A stretch of 22,996 nt of DNA, taken from the IMG/VR virus record IMGVR_UViG_3300032083_002322, positions 1-22,996 of that record; one strand, written 5' to 3'. This DNA is from a virus. Position 1 is the first letter of the stretch; each line of letters begins with the position of its first letter. Shown in pieces: positions 6,228-22,991 of this stretch. The notes beneath the pieces are model-generated. The model worked only from the letters and a program-made list of their open reading frames with translations. It did not search any database and was not told the DNA's origin. The translations under genes were made by a program, and so were the position numbers.

Positions 6228-7123
6228 AACAAGAATTTCTAAAAGATAAAGCCGGTGTTATACGAATATCAACGTTTATAAATAATGTTCAACAAGTTCC
6301 AACATCAGGTTTTATTGTCTTAAAGAATCCTAGTGGAACAGAAATTCAAGCGTCAGCAGCGGTAACAATAGACGCTTTAGGTGAAATGACCTATGATTTA
6401 ACGACAACACATACAGCAACTCTTGGATTAAACTTCATAGCAGAATGGACATATTCAATAGCCGGACAAACTTATTATGAATCGCAGTTGTTTGATATTG
6501 TTCGGTCAAGGTTATCAATTCCAATTACAGACGACGACTTATATAATGAGCTTGAAAGTTTAAGAACAACTAATATTCAGCAACAAGGTACAGCAACATC
6601 AGCAACAGCGTCAACGTTAATTGATACATCAGAATTGAAACAACCAGACGATTATTGGAATGGTGGTACAATTGAAATATTATCAGGAACAGGAGTTAAT
6701 CAGATTAGAGATATAACTGATTTTGTTCAAGCTGATTCTGAAATAACAGTATCTCCTGATTGGGTAACAACGCCAGATACAACTAGTGTCTATCGTGTTG
6801 TTAAATCATATTCAAGAGCAATTGAGCAATCATTCGTTAAATTATGTACTATGATTTATAACAAAGGTAAACGTCATGCTTTAATTCTTGAAAGTTCTCA
6901 ATTAAAAGTCCCAATGATTTATTTAACGATTCACTTCATAGCTTTAGATTTAATGGATGACGACAATGATAAATGGACAAGAGTTGCAGATAGATATTGG
7001 AGTTTATTCAGCAATTCATTTGATACATTAAAACTCGAATATGACGAAGATGAAAGCGGAACAATATCAGGAGTTGAAGAAGAACAAGCAAGTATCAGTT
7101 CAATAAGGATATTTAGATCATGA
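6224..7123 (+). CDS. Head-tail connector-like protein with N-terminal beta-sandwich (299 aa)
   Basis: Residues about 1-95 look like an Ig/beta-sandwich domain with alternating strands and a SQLFDIVRSRL exit, as seen at the N-terminus of several phage neck proteins. Residues about 100-195 hold a second beta domain (YWNGGTIEILSGTG, then EITVSPDWVTTPDTTSVYRV). The C-terminal ~100 residues are helical and acidic. This modular layout, placed before the tail-completion and tube genes, fits a head-tail adaptor or connector. A GAGG ribosome site lies about 8 nt before the ATG. The order is slightly unusual because a glycosyltransferase separates it from the remaining neck genes. The exact family is not certain. 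Confidence 0.6.
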   Translation: MKQEFLKDKAGVIRISTFINNVQQVPTSGFIVLKNPSGTEIQASAAVTIDALGEMTYDLTTTHTATLGLNFIAEWTYSIAGQTYYESQLFDIVRSRLSIPITDDDLYNELESLRTTNIQQQGTATSATASTLIDTSELKQPDDYWNGGTIEILSGTGVNQIRDITDFVQADSEITVSPDWVTTPDTTSVYRVVKSYSRAIEQSFVKLCTMIYNKGKRHALILESSQLKVPMIYLTIHFIALDLMDDDNDKWTRVADRYWSLFSNSFDTLKLEYDEDESGTISGVEEEQASISSIRIFRS

Positions 7124-7857
7124 AAGTTTCGGTTAATATTTTATGTTGGAACAATCTTGACGTTCTTGAAATGTCATTACCAATGCTTCTTGAGGAATTG
7201 AAATATATTGATCATGAAATTATCTTTGTGGATAACGGTTCAACAGACGGAAGTAAAGAGTTTATGTTAAAGTGGAAAGAAAAACACCCATGGCTTCTTA
7301 CTAACTTAATGTTTAATAGTGAAAACATGGGAATATCAAAGGGTAAAAATCAAGGAATTGATCATAGTCGAGGTGAATATATCTTTATGATGGACGGTGA
7401 CGTTTGTCCTGTTCCGCATAGCATATTAAAGTTGATTAAGTTTCTTGACGAAAACAAAGACAAACACGCTATTGGAATGTACCCAAATAAATGGACAGAT
7501 CAAGACGGAAAGAGCGGAGCAACGTATTTTGAAACTAGATGTGAACAATTATTTGAACCGGTTGTTCATAAATGTGCTTGTTTATTTTATGGTATGTATA
7601 GACGTTCTATATTTAAAGACGGATTAAGATTATGCGAAGATGGTGCTTTTGGAGAAGAAGGATACGGTTGGGAAGATCACGACTTTTTTAAACGTATGCA
7701 GAAAGAAGGAGTAATTCAATATGTCGCACATATTAATCATCCGAAGGGGCGATATTATCATAAAATTAACTCATCAATCCGATCTATGGGAGATAAGGTA
7801 TTTCGTAAATCTTTGTCTGATCGTTCCAAACAATTCAAGGAGATTTGGGGTGCTTGA
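7120..7857 (+). CDS. Family 2 (GT-A) glycosyltransferase
   Basis: The protein (245 aa) has the hallmarks of a GT-A fold family 2 glycosyltransferase. The N-terminal strand is VSVNILCWNN, followed by VDNGSTDGS at 37-45 (nucleotide binding), NMGISKGKNQGI at about 69-80, and a DGD metal-binding (DxD) motif at 92-94. The acceptor-side GEEGYGWEDHDF at 178-189 contains the catalytic-type ED (185-186), and histidines H207 and H214 lie near the C-terminus. The enzyme would transfer a sugar from a nucleotide-sugar donor. It overlaps the connector gene by 4 bases and the next gene by 8, so it is embedded in the morphogenesis operon. Virion-protein glycosylation or host-surface modification are both possible; the acceptor is unknown. 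Confidence 0.88.
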   Translation: MKVSVNILCWNNLDVLEMSLPMLLEELKYIDHEIIFVDNGSTDGSKEFMLKWKEKHPWLLTNLMFNSENMGISKGKNQGIDHSRGEYIFMMDGDVCPVPHSILKLIKFLDENKDKHAIGMYPNKWTDQDGKSGATYFETRCEQLFEPVVHKCACLFYGMYRRSIFKDGLRLCEDGAFGEEGYGWEDHDFFKRMQKEGVIQYVAHINHPKGRYYHKINSSIRSMGDKVFRKSLSDRSKQFKEIWGA

Positions 7858-11076: not shown

Positions 11077-12277
11077 AATTGACATAATGCTTGAGATGAT
11101 TGATAGAGCTTCACCTGAATTTAGAAAGGTGAATGCTGATATGATTAAGCAGGTTAAAAGTTTGGAAGATAGTAGTAAAAAAGCAACAAATTCTTTTCAA
11201 GATGGATTAAAAAAAGTTAATAAAGAAGTTCGTGATTTAAGAACAGCTTTTCTTGGTCTTTCTGTTGGAATTGCTTTAGCTATAAAAAGTGTTAATGATT
11301 TATCAAAATATAATAAAGATTCTAAAAATACTATGGATTTATTTAATAAATCTGCAACAACGTTATCGGCTACTCTTGGGGTCGTTTTTAAACCTGCGAT
11401 AGAAGGTTTAACAGTTGTTATAAATCTTTTTAGAGATTCGATTGTAGCAGCAATTGCTGGATTTATAAAATTATTTTCATTTACGTTTGAATTTTTAGCA
11501 GAATTACCTGCGGCTTTTAAAAATATTTTTGATAATATTAAAAATTTTTTTACTAAAGATGAAGATCCTGTTGGCATTATAGATGGTTTTAAAAAAGCAT
11601 TTGATAGTGCGGTGAATATAGCAAATATTGCGACAGATCAAATTATTGAAGATTTTAATAAAACAAAAGAAAAAATTAATGTTGGCAATGATAGTGAAGA
11701 TATAGAAGAAAGAAAAATTAATTTAGAATCATTAAGAGATTTAGCTATAAAAATAGAAGAAGATATTGCTAATGCAGCAAAAAAACAAGCTGAAGCAAAG
11801 AAAAAATATGCAAAAGAATCAGCAAATTCTATTGTTAATACATTACAAATTTTAGGAGAAAAAAATAAAGCAGTAGCAATTGCAGCAAAAGCTGTTGCTT
11901 TTACTTCTTCTGTTGTAAATGCAATACAAGCAGGAACAAAAGCAGCTGCTGAAACTGGAAGTCCTGTTTATGGATTAATCGTTAAATTAAGTCAACTTGC
12001 AGAAGCAGCAGCGATAGCAAGTATTGGTTTCGCTAAAGGTACAGATTCAGTACCGGCTATGTTGACACCTGGAGAAATGGTTGTTCCTCGTGATTTTGCT
12101 TCTGCGGTTCGTAGTGGGGATATTTCTATCGGTGGTCGTGGTGGTAGTGGTTCTTTTGGTGATATAAATATTTATATTCAAGGTGGTATTAGACAAGACG
12201 GCGATTCTGTTAGTCGAATGGCAGAAAAACTTGGGTTTGAATTTGAACGTCAACTAAGGACAGCAAGAGGATTCTAA
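11063..12277 (+). CDS. Short tail tape measure protein
   Basis: The protein (404 aa) has a helical, Lys-rich N-terminus (about 1-60), a long hydrophobic block (about 60-150, including AFLGLSVGIALAIK and SIVAAIAGFIKLFSF), and a Lys/Glu-rich coiled coil (about 190-270). It ends in a compact domain holding GTDSVPAMLTPGEMVVPRDFASAV from residue 326, a pattern common at the C-terminus of siphophage tape measures, followed by a Gly/Ser linker. It sets tail length and is carried inside the tube. At this length it implies a short tail, perhaps about 60 nm if the usual 0.15 nm per residue applies. Confidence 0.82.
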   Translation: MAENRIDIMLEMIDRASPEFRKVNADMIKQVKSLEDSSKKATNSFQDGLKKVNKEVRDLRTAFLGLSVGIALAIKSVNDLSKYNKDSKNTMDLFNKSATTLSATLGVVFKPAIEGLTVVINLFRDSIVAAIAGFIKLFSFTFEFLAELPAAFKNIFDNIKNFFTKDEDPVGIIDGFKKAFDSAVNIANIATDQIIEDFNKTKEKINVGNDSEDIEERKINLESLRDLAIKIEEDIANAAKKQAEAKKKYAKESANSIVNTLQILGEKNKAVAIAAKAVAFTSSVVNAIQAGTKAAAETGSPVYGLIVKLSQLAEAAAIASIGFAKGTDSVPAMLTPGEMVVPRDFASAVRSGDISIGGRGGSGSFGDINIYIQGGIRQDGDSVSRMAEKLGFEFERQLRTARGF

Positions 12278-16484: not shown

Positions 16485-16642
16485 TGTTTTCTCGCTTTCC
16501 ACCATTTCTTCATTATATAACTATGTTTCTTCTTATCTTCTTCTGTCCATAACCTTTTACCCCAACCCATATAGTTTGCGTGTCTAACTTTTTCTTTAAT
16601 TAATTTGATTGTTTTTTTAGAATGTTTTTGTCCTTTTCTCAT
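16472..16642 (-). CDS. Small basic protein with NUMOD3-like start (56 aa)
   Basis: The ATG overlaps the stop of the glycosyltransferase gene at 16639 in an ATGA junction. The opening MRKGQKHSKKTIKLIKE resembles the NUMOD3 DNA-binding motif (G.KHS..T...I) found in phage homing-type endonucleases, and the rest is rich in Lys and Trp (WGKRLW, KKWWKARKQ). No catalytic motif such as HNH or GIY-YIG follows, so this may be a stand-alone DNA-binding peptide or a remnant. AAAGGA lies about 10 nt upstream. Family call is weak. Confidence 0.4.
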   Translation of the reverse strand: MRKGQKHSKKTIKLIKEKVRHANYMGWGKRLWTEEDKKKHSYIMKKWWKARKQCEY

Positions 16643-17511
16643 TCCCATTTTCCTTTATTTGATTGAGATTTGATTAAAAGGTCTTTATCTTCGTATGGTT
16701 CAAACGTGTAATCTTCATAAGATATTCTTCTACGACTGAAGAAATTTTGTTCAAGTATTTCTCTATCTTTCTCATACCCTGTTGCAAATGGCCTATTAAG
16801 AAAATCTCGCTCATCTTTAGACTCACCTATTGCAATTGATTTTCCTAAATGGTCAATATCTATAAAACAATGTTCATCTCCAAATATTTCAACTGAACCA
16901 CCGTTAGCGTAAGCCATCATAACAATTTGATTCTCGTATTGTCCACACACATATCGACGGTCAATACCGCCTAAATCGTTTAAGAATTTCCTAGACATTA
17001 ATCCTAATGGAGCCATTAATGGAGTTGATTTATTTGAACCGAAAAATCTATGATTGTCCATATTGAATAACTGTCCTTTAATTGCACCATAACCCGATTC
17101 TTTTGTCTGAATCGACAATATCAATTTCTCATTATTTTGTGATTTCCAATATTTGTATGCTTTACCAATAACATCATTAGGAAATTCGCAGTCATCAGCT
17201 ACCCAAACAACACATTCACCTCGACAATTACGACGAGCTATTTCGTAGCATTGGGCAGGTTTTAAATTTTTTGTTTTTATATATTTAAAAAAAGTAATAT
17301 ATTCATTTTCATTTTCATCAATATTAATATGTATTGGTCTTTCAAATGAAATTCCTGAATTTTCACATTCTTTATTCATTAAATCTTTATTTTCTAAATT
17401 ACCTGCAAAAACAACCTCATATTCAACACTCGTTCCTTCTAAACTTTTAAATAATGATTCATACAATTGCGGTCTAACGCTTGAAGCGAATAAACTGACT
17501 TGAATGCTCAT
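16639..17511 (-). CDS. GT-A-type glycosyltransferase-like protein (290 aa)
   Basis: The protein has the layout of a family 2-like glycosyltransferase. An N-terminal strand (IQVSLFASSVRPQLYESL) is followed by YEVVFAGN at about 31-38, then AQCYEIARRNCRGECVVWVADDCEFPND at 86-113, in which ADD (105-107) takes the place of DxD. The acceptor-side element is SRKFLNDLGGIDRRYVCGQYENQI (about 173-196), with Glu193 where the catalytic ED/EN usually sits. The C-terminal 60 residues are charged. Its start overlaps the stop of the upstream 68-aa gene (ATGA). Substrate unknown; it may act on host surface glycans. Confidence 0.68.
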   Translation of the reverse strand: MSIQVSLFASSVRPQLYESLFKSLEGTSVEYEVVFAGNLENKDLMNKECENSGISFERPIHINIDENENEYITFFKYIKTKNLKPAQCYEIARRNCRGECVVWVADDCEFPNDVIGKAYKYWKSQNNEKLILSIQTKESGYGAIKGQLFNMDNHRFFGSNKSTPLMAPLGLMSRKFLNDLGGIDRRYVCGQYENQIVMMAYANGGSVEIFGDEHCFIDIDHLGKSIAIGESKDERDFLNRPFATGYEKDREILEQNFFSRRRISYEDYTFEPYEDKDLLIKSQSNKGKWE

Positions 17512-18068: not shown

Positions 18069-18549
18069 CTTTCTCCGATTTATTAAATAGAAAGTGCATA
18101 TGTTCAATCTTAACTTGTGGAACGTGATACAAACAATCGAGCTTATGACCTATATATTGCCAAACCATATCACCGCATAAATGATCAAGAGTAGGAAGAT
18201 GAACCCAACCTAGTGCTTTAAATATAACGCTACTCATAACCGCTGTTGTTGGCAAATGTTTGTTCCCACTTCCATCACAACCGAAAGCAATCCCATAACC
18301 TTTCTTTGATTCTATGACATTAATTAAACCGGCATCCCAACCGACTGTATGATAAAAGAAATCATCATTTGTTACGCTTATATACTTGTAATTATCAAAA
18401 TTAACTTTGTTTATTAACTTTGTAATTGATTGTTTTTCTGTTAGTACAATTAAATCAGAAGTGAAGTTTGTAGCATAAAACGATTCAGCCATTCTGGTAA
18501 ACTGTTCTATTCGATTTATTGTTGGGCAGATGACTAAGTTTTTATTCAC
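17935..18549 (-). CDS. Glycosyltransferase-like protein (204 aa)
   Basis: The protein starts NLVICPTINRIEQFTRMAESF, then has SDLIVLTEKQSITKLIN, then YISVTNDDFFYHTVGWD with Asp62-Asp63 in place of a DxD, and later CGDMVWQYIGHKLDCLY (about 125-141) and KIEHMHF (147-153). This order matches small glycosyltransferase-like proteins seen in environmental phages. The start is GTG 18549, inside the end of the Imm-like gene, with only a weak GAAG upstream. It is the second such enzyme in this leftward block. Acceptor and donor are unknown. Confidence 0.62.
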   Translation of the reverse strand: MNKNLVICPTINRIEQFTRMAESFYATNFTSDLIVLTEKQSITKLINKVNFDNYKYISVTNDDFFYHTVGWDAGLINVIESKKGYGIAFGCDGSGNKHLPTTAVMSSVIFKALGWVHLPTLDHLCGDMVWQYIGHKLDCLYHVPQVKIEHMHFLFNKSEKDEVYENTNSKEMYQKDNEAFRHWVRNDSIEDIKRIQSALDLFNL

Positions 18550-18736
18550 AAAACACTTCTTTTCTATCTGATACAGCCCAAACTAATGCACCAACCCACC
18601 CAATAAGAGTCCACCCAAGAAACAAGTTTAAAGTTAATATACCTTGTTTATGTTTTTTGTTTATTGCTACAATTGACGGAATGAAATATAAAATTCCGAT
18701 TCCCAGTACTGCTAGTATCGACGCTATTATTTCCAT
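18542..18736 (-). CDS. imm: Superinfection immunity membrane protein (T4 Imm-like)
   Basis: The 64-residue protein has two transmembrane segments (about 3-25 and 34-55) with the pattern of the superinfection immunity family: YFIPSIVAINKKHKQG, then LNLFLGWTLIGWVGALVWAV. The central NLFLGWT(x)IGW block is the family hallmark. T4 Imm sits in the inner membrane and blocks DNA injection by related phages. An AAAGGAG site lies just upstream. Flanked by glycosyltransferase-like genes, it suggests a superinfection-exclusion island. Confidence 0.8.
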   Translation of the reverse strand: MEIIASILAVLGIGILYFIPSIVAINKKHKQGILTLNLFLGWTLIGWVGALVWAVSDRKEVFCE

Positions 18737-20193: not shown

Positions 20194-20436
20194 TCATTTA
20201 AAAATCTCCCCGTTGTTTATCGCTGAGAGGATTTCTTTAGCTAAGAAATCGGCTTGTTTTTCATAATATACTGGTATGTAAGGTTTCAAAAATGAAGATA
20301 ACTTCTTAACGTCAATCTCCACCCTCTCGGCTTCGAGTTGGTCTAGGCAAGTGTTAAATCCCAACGAATACTCGTCAACCTCATCACCGCCTGTGTACAT
20401 TAAGGCTTTCTCAGGAATCTTTCTGAAAATGTGCAT
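20194..20436 (-). CDS. Small phage protein (80 aa)
   Basis: An AGGAATAGACA sequence precedes the ATG; it shares GACAATGCACATT with the junction upstream of the Acb2-like gene. The protein has an N-terminal basic part (MHIFRKIPEKALMYTGGDEV), then a Glu/Lys-rich helix (LDQLEAERVEIDVKKLSSFL) and a C-terminal helix (EKQADFLAKEILSAINN). No known motif. Being next to an Acb2-like gene, it is a reasonable candidate for another counter-defence or takeover protein; that is position only. Confidence 0.55.
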   Translation of the reverse strand: MHIFRKIPEKALMYTGGDEVDEYSLGFNTCLDQLEAERVEIDVKKLSSFLKPYIPVYYEKQADFLAKEILSAINNGEIFK

Positions 20437-20441
20437 TGTCT
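20428..20441 (-). repeat. Junction repeat around start codon, copy 1
   Basis: AATGTGCATTGTCT is identical at 20428-20441 and 20701-20714 on the + strand. In both places the reverse strand has GACAATGCACATT with an ATG: it starts the 80-aa gene here and lies at the end of the YopX gene in the other copy. Confidence 0.8.
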
Positions 20442-20679
20442 ATTCCTCTGTTCTTTCCATAACATCGCGAGTTTCTGGATTCCGTGCAATCTGTTCATCA
20501 CGGATAGCTTTTCCTACCCACATATAAGTTATTTCAAGATATGTCATTACTAATGATTTTGCACGACCATCTTTTAATCCTTCAGCCATATTTTCTAAAT
20601 CCAGAAATAAATCTTTAAAAGCTGATTGTTGGATTGTTGCTCTTTCGTCATACTTTACATAATCTAATCTTCTACTCAT
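20440..20679 (-). CDS. acb2: Acb2/Tad1-like cyclic-nucleotide sponge candidate
   Basis: I start at ATG 20679, which has AAGGAG 7 nt upstream; an in-frame ATG at 20709 also has a usable site. The 79-aa product reads LDYVKYDERATIQQSAFKDL, then DGRAKSLVMTYLEITYMWVGKAIRDEQIARNP (about residues 38-68). The Arg-Ala-Lys-Ser-Leu, then YMWVGKAIRDEQ helical-hairpin pattern is what I know from phage Acb2/Tad1 proteins, which bind cyclic oligonucleotides or gcADPR-type signals and thereby disarm CBASS or Thoeris. It is small and helical, as the family requires. No catalytic function is expected. Confidence 0.65.
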   Translation of the reverse strand: MSRRLDYVKYDERATIQQSAFKDLFLDLENMAEGLKDGRAKSLVMTYLEITYMWVGKAIRDEQIARNPETRDVMERTEE

Positions 20680-20698
20680 TTTTAATCTCCTTTTGTTA

Positions 20699-21055
20699 TT
20701 AATGTGCATTGTCTTTCTCCAGTAGTTCAGGGTTTTCGTATATGTTTCCGATTACTTCCATTTGATTATGAAATACAGGTAAGTATTGCAACGACGCTGG
20801 ATATTCACTATTTTTATCTCCGACAGTAAATCCACATTTAGAAAAAATAATAACTTGTGATTCACCACTTATTTTGGATGGACAAATATCACCCTCATAA
20901 ATCTCTTTACCATTTTTGTCTTTGAGTCCTGTGTATTGCATTAAAATTCCATTTGGTTCAGCAGTTAATGATCCATCTGGATTGTATTGAAGCATTGAAA
21001 TAGTCCAATTTTTAAATTTTTTATCCCACACCCTAAACTTAATTTCCCTTGTCAT
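20699..21055 (-). CDS. YopX-family protein
   Basis: The 118-aa protein begins REIKFRVWDKKFKNW, has LMQYTGLKDKNGKEIYEGDIC at about 38-58, and ends QMEVIGNIYENPELLEKDN. These are the defining blocks of the YopX family found in phages and prophages (beta-barrel-like, function not established). A GGAGAAAGACA sequence precedes the ATG. Its last codons (CTGGAGAAAGACAAT) repeat the sequence that precedes its own start, so its tail doubles as the ribosome site for the next gene. Confidence 0.88.
   Translation of the reverse strand: MTREIKFRVWDKKFKNWTISMLQYNPDGSLTAEPNGILMQYTGLKDKNGKEIYEGDICPSKISGESQVIIFSKCGFTVGDKNSEYPASLQYLPVFHNQMEVIGNIYENPELLEKDNAH
20701..20723 (-). repeat. Junction repeat at the YopX 3' end, copy 2 plus 17-bp element
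   Basis: Bases 20701-20714 repeat 20428-20441, and bases 20707-20723 (CATTGTCTTTCTCCAGT) repeat 21053-21069 exactly. The overlapping elements place GGAG and an ATG together, so each copy can serve as a ready-made translation start. Confidence 0.8.
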
Positions 21056-22262: not shown

Positions 22263-22991
22263 TTATTTAACTCCTTTTAGATTAGTTAATCTGTTTTTAG
22301 TCCTAAACTGCAACGCTTGTTCAATCGTCCTACACTCTGGAGAAACGCCCTCGATATGATAAATATTCGTCGTAAGGTTTCGCATTTTTAAGTAAGGTCT
22401 GTAATTCTTATCTAAAATATTTCCCATATCAATCAACTCATATTCACTTTGTCGATATAAGTCGTTTGAATATTTCTCTGACGTTTCAACAACTTTCCCG
22501 AGTTTAGCCATGCGTTCAATTCCATATTTTCTTACAAACTCTGTTCTAACATCTGCGTTTTTTTCTTTATGAAAAAAATCAATATCAAGTTTCCCTTCTG
22601 GAGTTTCTGCTAAGTATTGAGGAACCCTTACTCCATTTAAACCCCAAATGCTAAATCCGTCAGGATATTGGATTGCTGGTCCTCCGTCACAATGAATAAC
22701 TCCATTCTTTAATTTACAAACATTATGACGTTCGCTAATCCAACAAATATTTTCATGTGGTATTATCCAACCAGCGTTTTTTGATAAAATCCATAAACCA
22801 TTTAACTTTTCTGTCTGTTTCTCTAACTTTAAAACATTTTTAAAATAATCATAAAATCCCAACCAATAAGCGTCATGTTGTCCATATACCGAAGCCATGA
22901 CCGAAGCCCAGACTGAAGCCCTGACTGAAGCCCAGACTGAAGCCCTAACGGAATCCCAGACTGTATCACTGACTGAAGACTCGACCGAAGC
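22263..22991 (-). CDS. DUF6745-like protein with N-terminal tetrapeptide repeat, 5' end off window
   Basis: From ATG 22898 the frame gives 211 aa. It begins ASVYGQHDAYWLGFYDYF, then NAGWIIPHENICWISER and CKLKNGVIHCDGGPAIQYPDGFSIWGLNGVRVPQYL, which match the core of DUF6745-type proteins. Upstream, in the same frame, codons read a tetrapeptide repeat (A/D)-S-V-(W/R/M), with no start codon, up to a TAG at 22994-22992. The intact gene probably starts beyond the window, or the TAG is a W-to-stop mutation, because the repeat's fourth position is usually TGG or AGG. ATG 22898 has no ribosome site. Confidence 0.65.
   Translation of the reverse strand, partial: ASVESSVSDTVWDSVRASVWASVRASVWASVMASVYGQHDAYWLGFYDYFKNVLKLEKQTEKLNGLWILSKNAGWIIPHENICWISERHNVCKLKNGVIHCDGGPAIQYPDGFSIWGLNGVRVPQYLAETPEGKLDIDFFHKEKNADVRTEFVRKYGIERMAKLGKVVETSEKYSNDLYRQSEYELIDMGNILDKNYRPYLKMRNLTTNIYHIEGVSPECRTIEQALQFRTKNRLTNLKGVK
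22899..22989 (-). repeat. 12-bp tandem repeat coding for (A/D)-S-V-x
   Basis: About seven to eight copies of a 12-base unit, close to GACTGAAGCCCA on the + strand (variants have CCCT, TCGA or an A in place of C), run to the edge of the window. On the coding strand each copy encodes Ala/Asp-Ser-Val plus Trp, Arg, Met or Glu. The copy next to the window edge carries the TAG in the fourth position. Length variation by slippage is expected in such a repeat. Confidence 0.75.

Follow-up and report, generated by a model that had tools for sequence, protein, structure and literature searches.

A small Acb2-type phage protein with a remodelled pocket, very likely a sponge for an immune cyclic nucleotide

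The 22,996-base IMG/VR virus record IMGVR_UViG_3300032083_002322, analysed here at its full length and referred to as the window, carries at 20440-20679 on the minus strand an ORF for a 79-aa protein (MSRRLDYVKYDERATIQQSAFKDLFLDLENMAEGLKDGRAKSLVMTYLEITYMWVGKAIRDEQIARNPETRDVMERTEE) that belongs to the Acb2/Tad1 hairpin superfamily and is, in our judgment very likely, an Acb2-type phage sponge acting as an oligomer on an immune cyclic nucleotide. This kind of sponge is already known, and Pfam covers the protein through its family PF24729; the novelty lies in a coherent subfamily whose clade-specific residues, at positions that align with ligand contacts, are invariant. Acb2 as known is a homohexamer that binds cyclic oligonucleotides and gives them back intact. 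In the mechanism that we propose, the hairpin would assemble into an oligomer during infection, putatively a hexamer by homology to T4 Vs.4, and its pockets, each lying between two subunits, would take up a cyclic nucleotide that the host produces as a signal in CBASS, Thoeris or type III CRISPR defence. With the nucleotide held by the sponge, the defence effector would never be switched on, to the presumed benefit of the phage. The gene lies in the following setting:

20440..20679, minus strand: candidate Acb2-type sponge gene, 79 aa (P0001), with a PF24729 match (28 bits, E 2.5e-6), membership in a clade of 38 (support 100/96) and an AlphaFold2 (AF2) hairpin at pLDDT 85.6
20687..20690, minus strand: Shine-Dalgarno GGAG, 7 nt before the ATG, by direct sequence reading
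20699..21055, minus strand: YopX-family gene directly upstream (PF09643, E 1.9e-24), context outside the sponge
20194..20436, minus strand: 80-aa gene directly downstream after a 3-nt gap, context outside the sponge, with no Pfam, PHROGs, NCBIfam or PADLOC match

Both motifs named in a preliminary description of this DNA, GRAKSLVMTYLE and YMWVGKAIRDEQ, were found where it had placed them, on the minus strand, as were the ORF and its start. The gene sits, as that description also had it, among small genes in a leftward block, and the block is tightly packed. The ATG at 20679 is preceded, 7 nt away, by the Shine-Dalgarno match AAAAGGAGATTAAAA. Tail genes elsewhere in the window, together with the viral contigs from which its relatives come, mark the gene as phage-encoded, as is expected of Acb2.

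A search of Pfam-A returned one match for the protein, to PF24729 (Acb2/Tad1 hairpin), so that the HMM search proposed earlier as a check gave 28 bits where the curated cut-off is 27. A score barely above the cut-off is thin alone, and relatives were therefore sought; two scans of IMG/VR yielded about 50 loci, and the PF24729 cut-off was passed in 12 of 13 relatives' records, at 27-43 bits. A profile of these relatives from which the window sequence had been left out gave the protein 103 bits, whereas none of 10,000 shuffles exceeded 12, and a profile of ordinary Acb2-like proteins gave it 21.4 bits, as compared to 14.2 for the best shuffle. The top matches to either profile include no other of the 203 six-frame stretches in the window (at least 40 residues, stop to stop). 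When the clade was compared with ordinary Acb2-like proteins profile to profile, the two aligned over residues 2-60, the whole hairpin, with a probability of 98.7% and an E-value of 2.6e-16, and the N-terminal RFxY motif and the helix-2 motif are in register with those of ordinary Acb2-like proteins. Against the PDB, the sequence profile matched Acb2 homolog 43 (9ptq, E 6e-4) and Tad1 (8kbb, E 3e-4). NCBIfam and PADLOC gave nothing for the protein; the sole match of a single-sequence phmmer search of the PDB, ribosome recycling factor, was set aside as chance.

In a tree of 84 proteins, the window protein and 37 relatives form one clade of 38 sequences (support 100/96) that is separate from both the ordinary Acb2-like proteins and Tad1, although with so few columns the deeper branching order is not readable. 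The clade carries the signature RFDYVKYD ... YMWVGKAIRDxQI ... LQEERxN. Its members come from uncultivated phage contigs, and relatives occur essentially only on phage contigs. With the window protein as the tblastn query, neither the 50,697 sequenced phage records of INPHARED nor the PLSDB plasmids gave a match; a clade-consensus query reached only three actinophage records, two of which, examined in full, proved to be of the ordinary type. A single-pattern scan of GTDB species genomes returned one match, on a Nitrospirota MAG contig with phage-like genes. A survey of sponge diversity by Hadary in 2025 may have sampled this clade.

The AF2 model, computed from the 37-sequence alignment, is a helical hairpin of mean pLDDT 85.6, whose two long antiparallel helices (residues 12-33 and 39-66) exceed pLDDT 90 across most of their length. 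The segments of the protein map onto the DNA as follows:

20626..20661, minus strand: N-terminal pocket segment, residues 7-18, with Y7 (T4 Y8), Y10 and D11, from the alignment (Y in 35/37, Y in 34/37, D in 33/37)
20581..20646, minus strand: helix 1, residues 12-33, including K22, from DSSP of the model (K in 36/37)
20482..20565, minus strand: helix 2, residues 39-66, with R39, T46, L48, E49, Y52, M53, W54, G56, K57, R60, D61 and Q63, from DSSP of the model
20443..20481, minus strand: C-terminal tail, residues 67-79, DVMERTEE in the window and LQEERxN in the family consensus, from the alignment

Structural comparison agrees with the hairpin fold anticipated in the preliminary description, and its best-ranked relatives are Acb2 homolog 43 with 3′cADPR and T4 Vs.4 with cGAMP. 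Foldseek places T4 Vs.4 with cGAMP at ranks 1 and 2, with E-values above 1; VIA puts Acb2 homolog 43 with 3′cADPR on top (Z 7.4, 65 residues, rmsd 2.6) and Vs.4 next (Z 6.5, a score shared by the rows immediately after it), and in BFVD most of the top ten carry the name of Acb2/Tad1 hairpin proteins. The model of an ordinary Acb2-like protein, computed as a control, fared no better, placing T4 Vs.4 only 21st by Foldseek and 11th by VIA. As the Foldseek and VIA scores are low, and helical hairpins are common and discriminate poorly, we take the fold as consistent with an Acb2-type protein, not as proof of one. Residues 1-11, where Acb2 has a short N-terminal helix, are modelled as coil at a pLDDT of about 63, whereas the ordinary-relative control model has a helix at 3-9. 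The C-terminal tail is probably disordered, or ordered in the oligomer only, since mean pLDDT falls to 49 over the last residues.

What, then, has become of the pocket? T4 Vs.4 is a hexamer with three cGAMP molecules bound, the bases of which stack on Y8 and F82 while Y8, H11, K23 and R79 hold the ligand; ligand contacts are disturbed by S74N, and A77I causes a clash at the hexamer interface (PMC10097602). Exchange of F82 for alanine lowers cGAMP binding more than 25-fold. By alignment, Y8 corresponds to Y7 of the window protein, H11 to Y10, K23 to K22, R79 to K57 and F82 to R60, the helix-2 pairs being found by hhalign as well; the pocket-side S74 corresponds to Y52, and A77 to V55. Two of these contacts, Y7 and K22, are thus kept, and the change from R79 to K57 is conservative, whereas H11 and F82 are replaced by Y10 and R60. 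K22 also aligns with K26 of PaMx43 Acb2. Conservation within the clade is high at all of these contacts: among 37 sequences, Y7 is found in 35, Y10 in 34 and K22 in 36, and Y52, K57 and R60 in every one, as are the other helix-2 residues listed above except T46 (36 of 37). Mean column entropy over Y7, Y10, K22, K57, R60 and Y52 is 0.15, whereas the core has 1.45 (resampling p about 5e-4), with the conservation in helix 2 inflated because the patterns of the second scan sat there, a bias outside which Y7, Y10 and K22 lie. R39, invariant both in the window clade and in ordinary Acb2-like proteins, matches R67 of PaMx43 Acb2, which we take to lie in the cyclic-trinucleotide pocket. With Y7 and K22 kept and clade-specific residues at the other contacts, the pocket of the clade is still basic and aromatic, yet rebuilt; and with R60 in the place of F82 and V55 in that of A77, neither the ligand nor the hexamer of T4 is simply transferable.

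Set beside the known systems, the protein resembles Acb2 (T4 Vs.4; ORF24 of Pseudomonas phage PaMx43) in being a small phage protein with a helical hairpin, a Y-x14-K spacing (15 residues from Y to K in T4, PaMx43 Acb2 and window alike), a basic residue at the R79 position and a pattern of T and hydrophobic residues in helix 2. It differs in the invariant R60 and the other substitutions at T4 positions just described, in its short hairpin turn within 79 aa, where the T4 and PaMx43 proteins carry a long inter-helix insertion, and in its extra C-terminal tail. The short Acb2-like phage proteins (RFxYHxP...REKSLAITKLEE.MFWANAAIAR; alignment A3) share with the clade the RFxY start, R39, L43, T46, E49/E50 and W54, but at positions 52, 55, 56, 57, 60 and 61 they have M/V, A, N, A, A and R in contrast to Y, V/I, G, K, R and D in the clade, and they lack its LQEER tail. 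Acb2 homolog 43 (PDB 9ptq, with 3′cADPR) has lysines at the K22 and K57 positions; unlike the window protein, it has in the alignments no equivalents of Y7, W54 and R60. Tad1 (SBSphiJ7; PDB 8kbb, 7uav) shares the helix-2 pattern R..A(M/L)A.TKL.E..MW-x-GK...D, but in Tad1 an antiparallel beta-sheet domain at the N-terminus precedes the hairpin, which is C-terminal in the 142 aa of SBSphiJ7 Tad1; the model of the 79-aa window protein contains no strand. We therefore reject membership in Tad1 itself, and of the Acb2/Tad1-like identity proposed earlier the Acb2 half stands while the Tad1 half falls with the missing sheet domain.

With Y52, K57, R60 and D61 invariant in a rebuilt pocket, the preferred ligand is expected to differ from that of ordinary short Acb2-like proteins, and the protein is probably a sponge with a specificity of its own. 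The preliminary description had supposed that this copy does the same as its namesakes; given the remodelling, doing the same is not binding the same signal. A CBASS nucleotide and a cADPR isomer are both candidates for the ligand, and the sequence does not decide between them. A sponge for Thoeris-type cyclic ADP-ribose signals, not for CBASS nucleotides, is a possibility to which we give limited credence: the closest solved Acb2-type relative, by both sequence profile and VIA Z-score, is Acb2 homolog 43 with 3′cADPR, with which the lysines at K22 and K57 are shared, and helix 2 is Tad1-like, having MW-x-GK-x(3)-D in common with 8kbb. However, the same two positions are K23 and R79 in the cGAMP-binding T4 Vs.4 (PMC10097602), and neither of the two solved proteins (homolog 43 and Vs.4) has R60 or Y52. 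Equally tentative is the idea that the clade is a sponge subfamily with its pocket tuned to an immune nucleotide that known Acb2 proteins do not bind, possibly one not yet described.

Other readings dispense with the sponge altogether. The hairpin could have been re-used for housekeeping nucleotide binding, or for phage regulation or replication, outside counter-defence; clade-specific changes fall at ligand contacts and hexamer-interface positions alike, and some relatives lie within 5 kb of a gene for an SNF2-like helicase (6 loci) or of a Cas4/DUF2800-like gene (4 loci), both names being our own reading of the sequences. We nevertheless regard such re-use as improbable, for the pocket keeps its basic and aromatic residues, the neighbours are not conserved, as would be expected of an accessory gene, and the profile searches led to solved relatives that are sponges. 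Far less probable still is a chance resemblance of a small unrelated helical protein: the protein is short and helical, with a single near-cut-off match and weak Foldseek E-values, but the shuffle control, the profile-profile E-value and the RFxY and helix-2 motifs in register all contradict it.

An immune-nucleotide sponge remains the preferred reading. Sponge families reveal which alarm nucleotides bacteria use, and the clade, present in dozens of uncultivated phages, would offer a practical bait for the signal that its hosts make. Panoptes-type guards sense nucleotide sequestration by Acb2 (PMC12657218) and would be expected to be triggered by the window sponge, if it bound their signal.

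The further suggestion that the small neighbouring genes are themselves candidates for counter-defence found no support as a general rule. Conserved neighbours of the clade genes were looked for at 41 loci and none emerged, the commonest, the SNF2-like helicase, being near 6 of the 41; PADLOC matched none of the tested neighbours of the sponge gene. The leftward block does include one gene for a superinfection immunity protein (18542-18736, minus strand; 64 aa, PF14373, E 1.8e-16).

Several relatives depart from the compact form. A clade member at L017:2539-2916 has about 45 additional residues between the helices, reminiscent of T4 and PaMx43 Acb2 with their longer hairpin loop, and another (L057:5001-5510), of 169 aa, has an extra Cys-rich, zinc-ribbon-like C-terminal half. 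At L022:2540-3349 the sponge ORF continues into a protein with weak similarity to Tlde1 (E 0.046). We did not accept a fusion of sponge and Tlde1-like domain at L003 and L022; the join lies at the normal end of the family, where a GGAGAGGAGGG ribosome-binding site accompanies a GTG, so that the loss or misreading of a stop is the likelier cause. The 122.8-kb record G016 (that of L063) carries adjacent ordinary Acb2-like hairpin genes at 11430-11600 and 11694-11864, perhaps sponges of two specificities.

As for the rest of the window, neither the whole of it by megablast nor its Dit-like protein by tblastn had a match in INPHARED. Two GT2-type glycosyltransferase genes, one strong (7120-7857, plus strand, E 8e-22) and one weak (16639-17511, minus strand), may serve to modify the host surface or the virion, and a DUF6745 gene lies at 22263-22898 on the minus strand (PF20530, E 1e-16). 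The right contig end, 22891-22996, is a 12-bp tandem repeat in 8.8 copies (GAAGCCCAGACT), a possible reason for the end of the assembly at this point.
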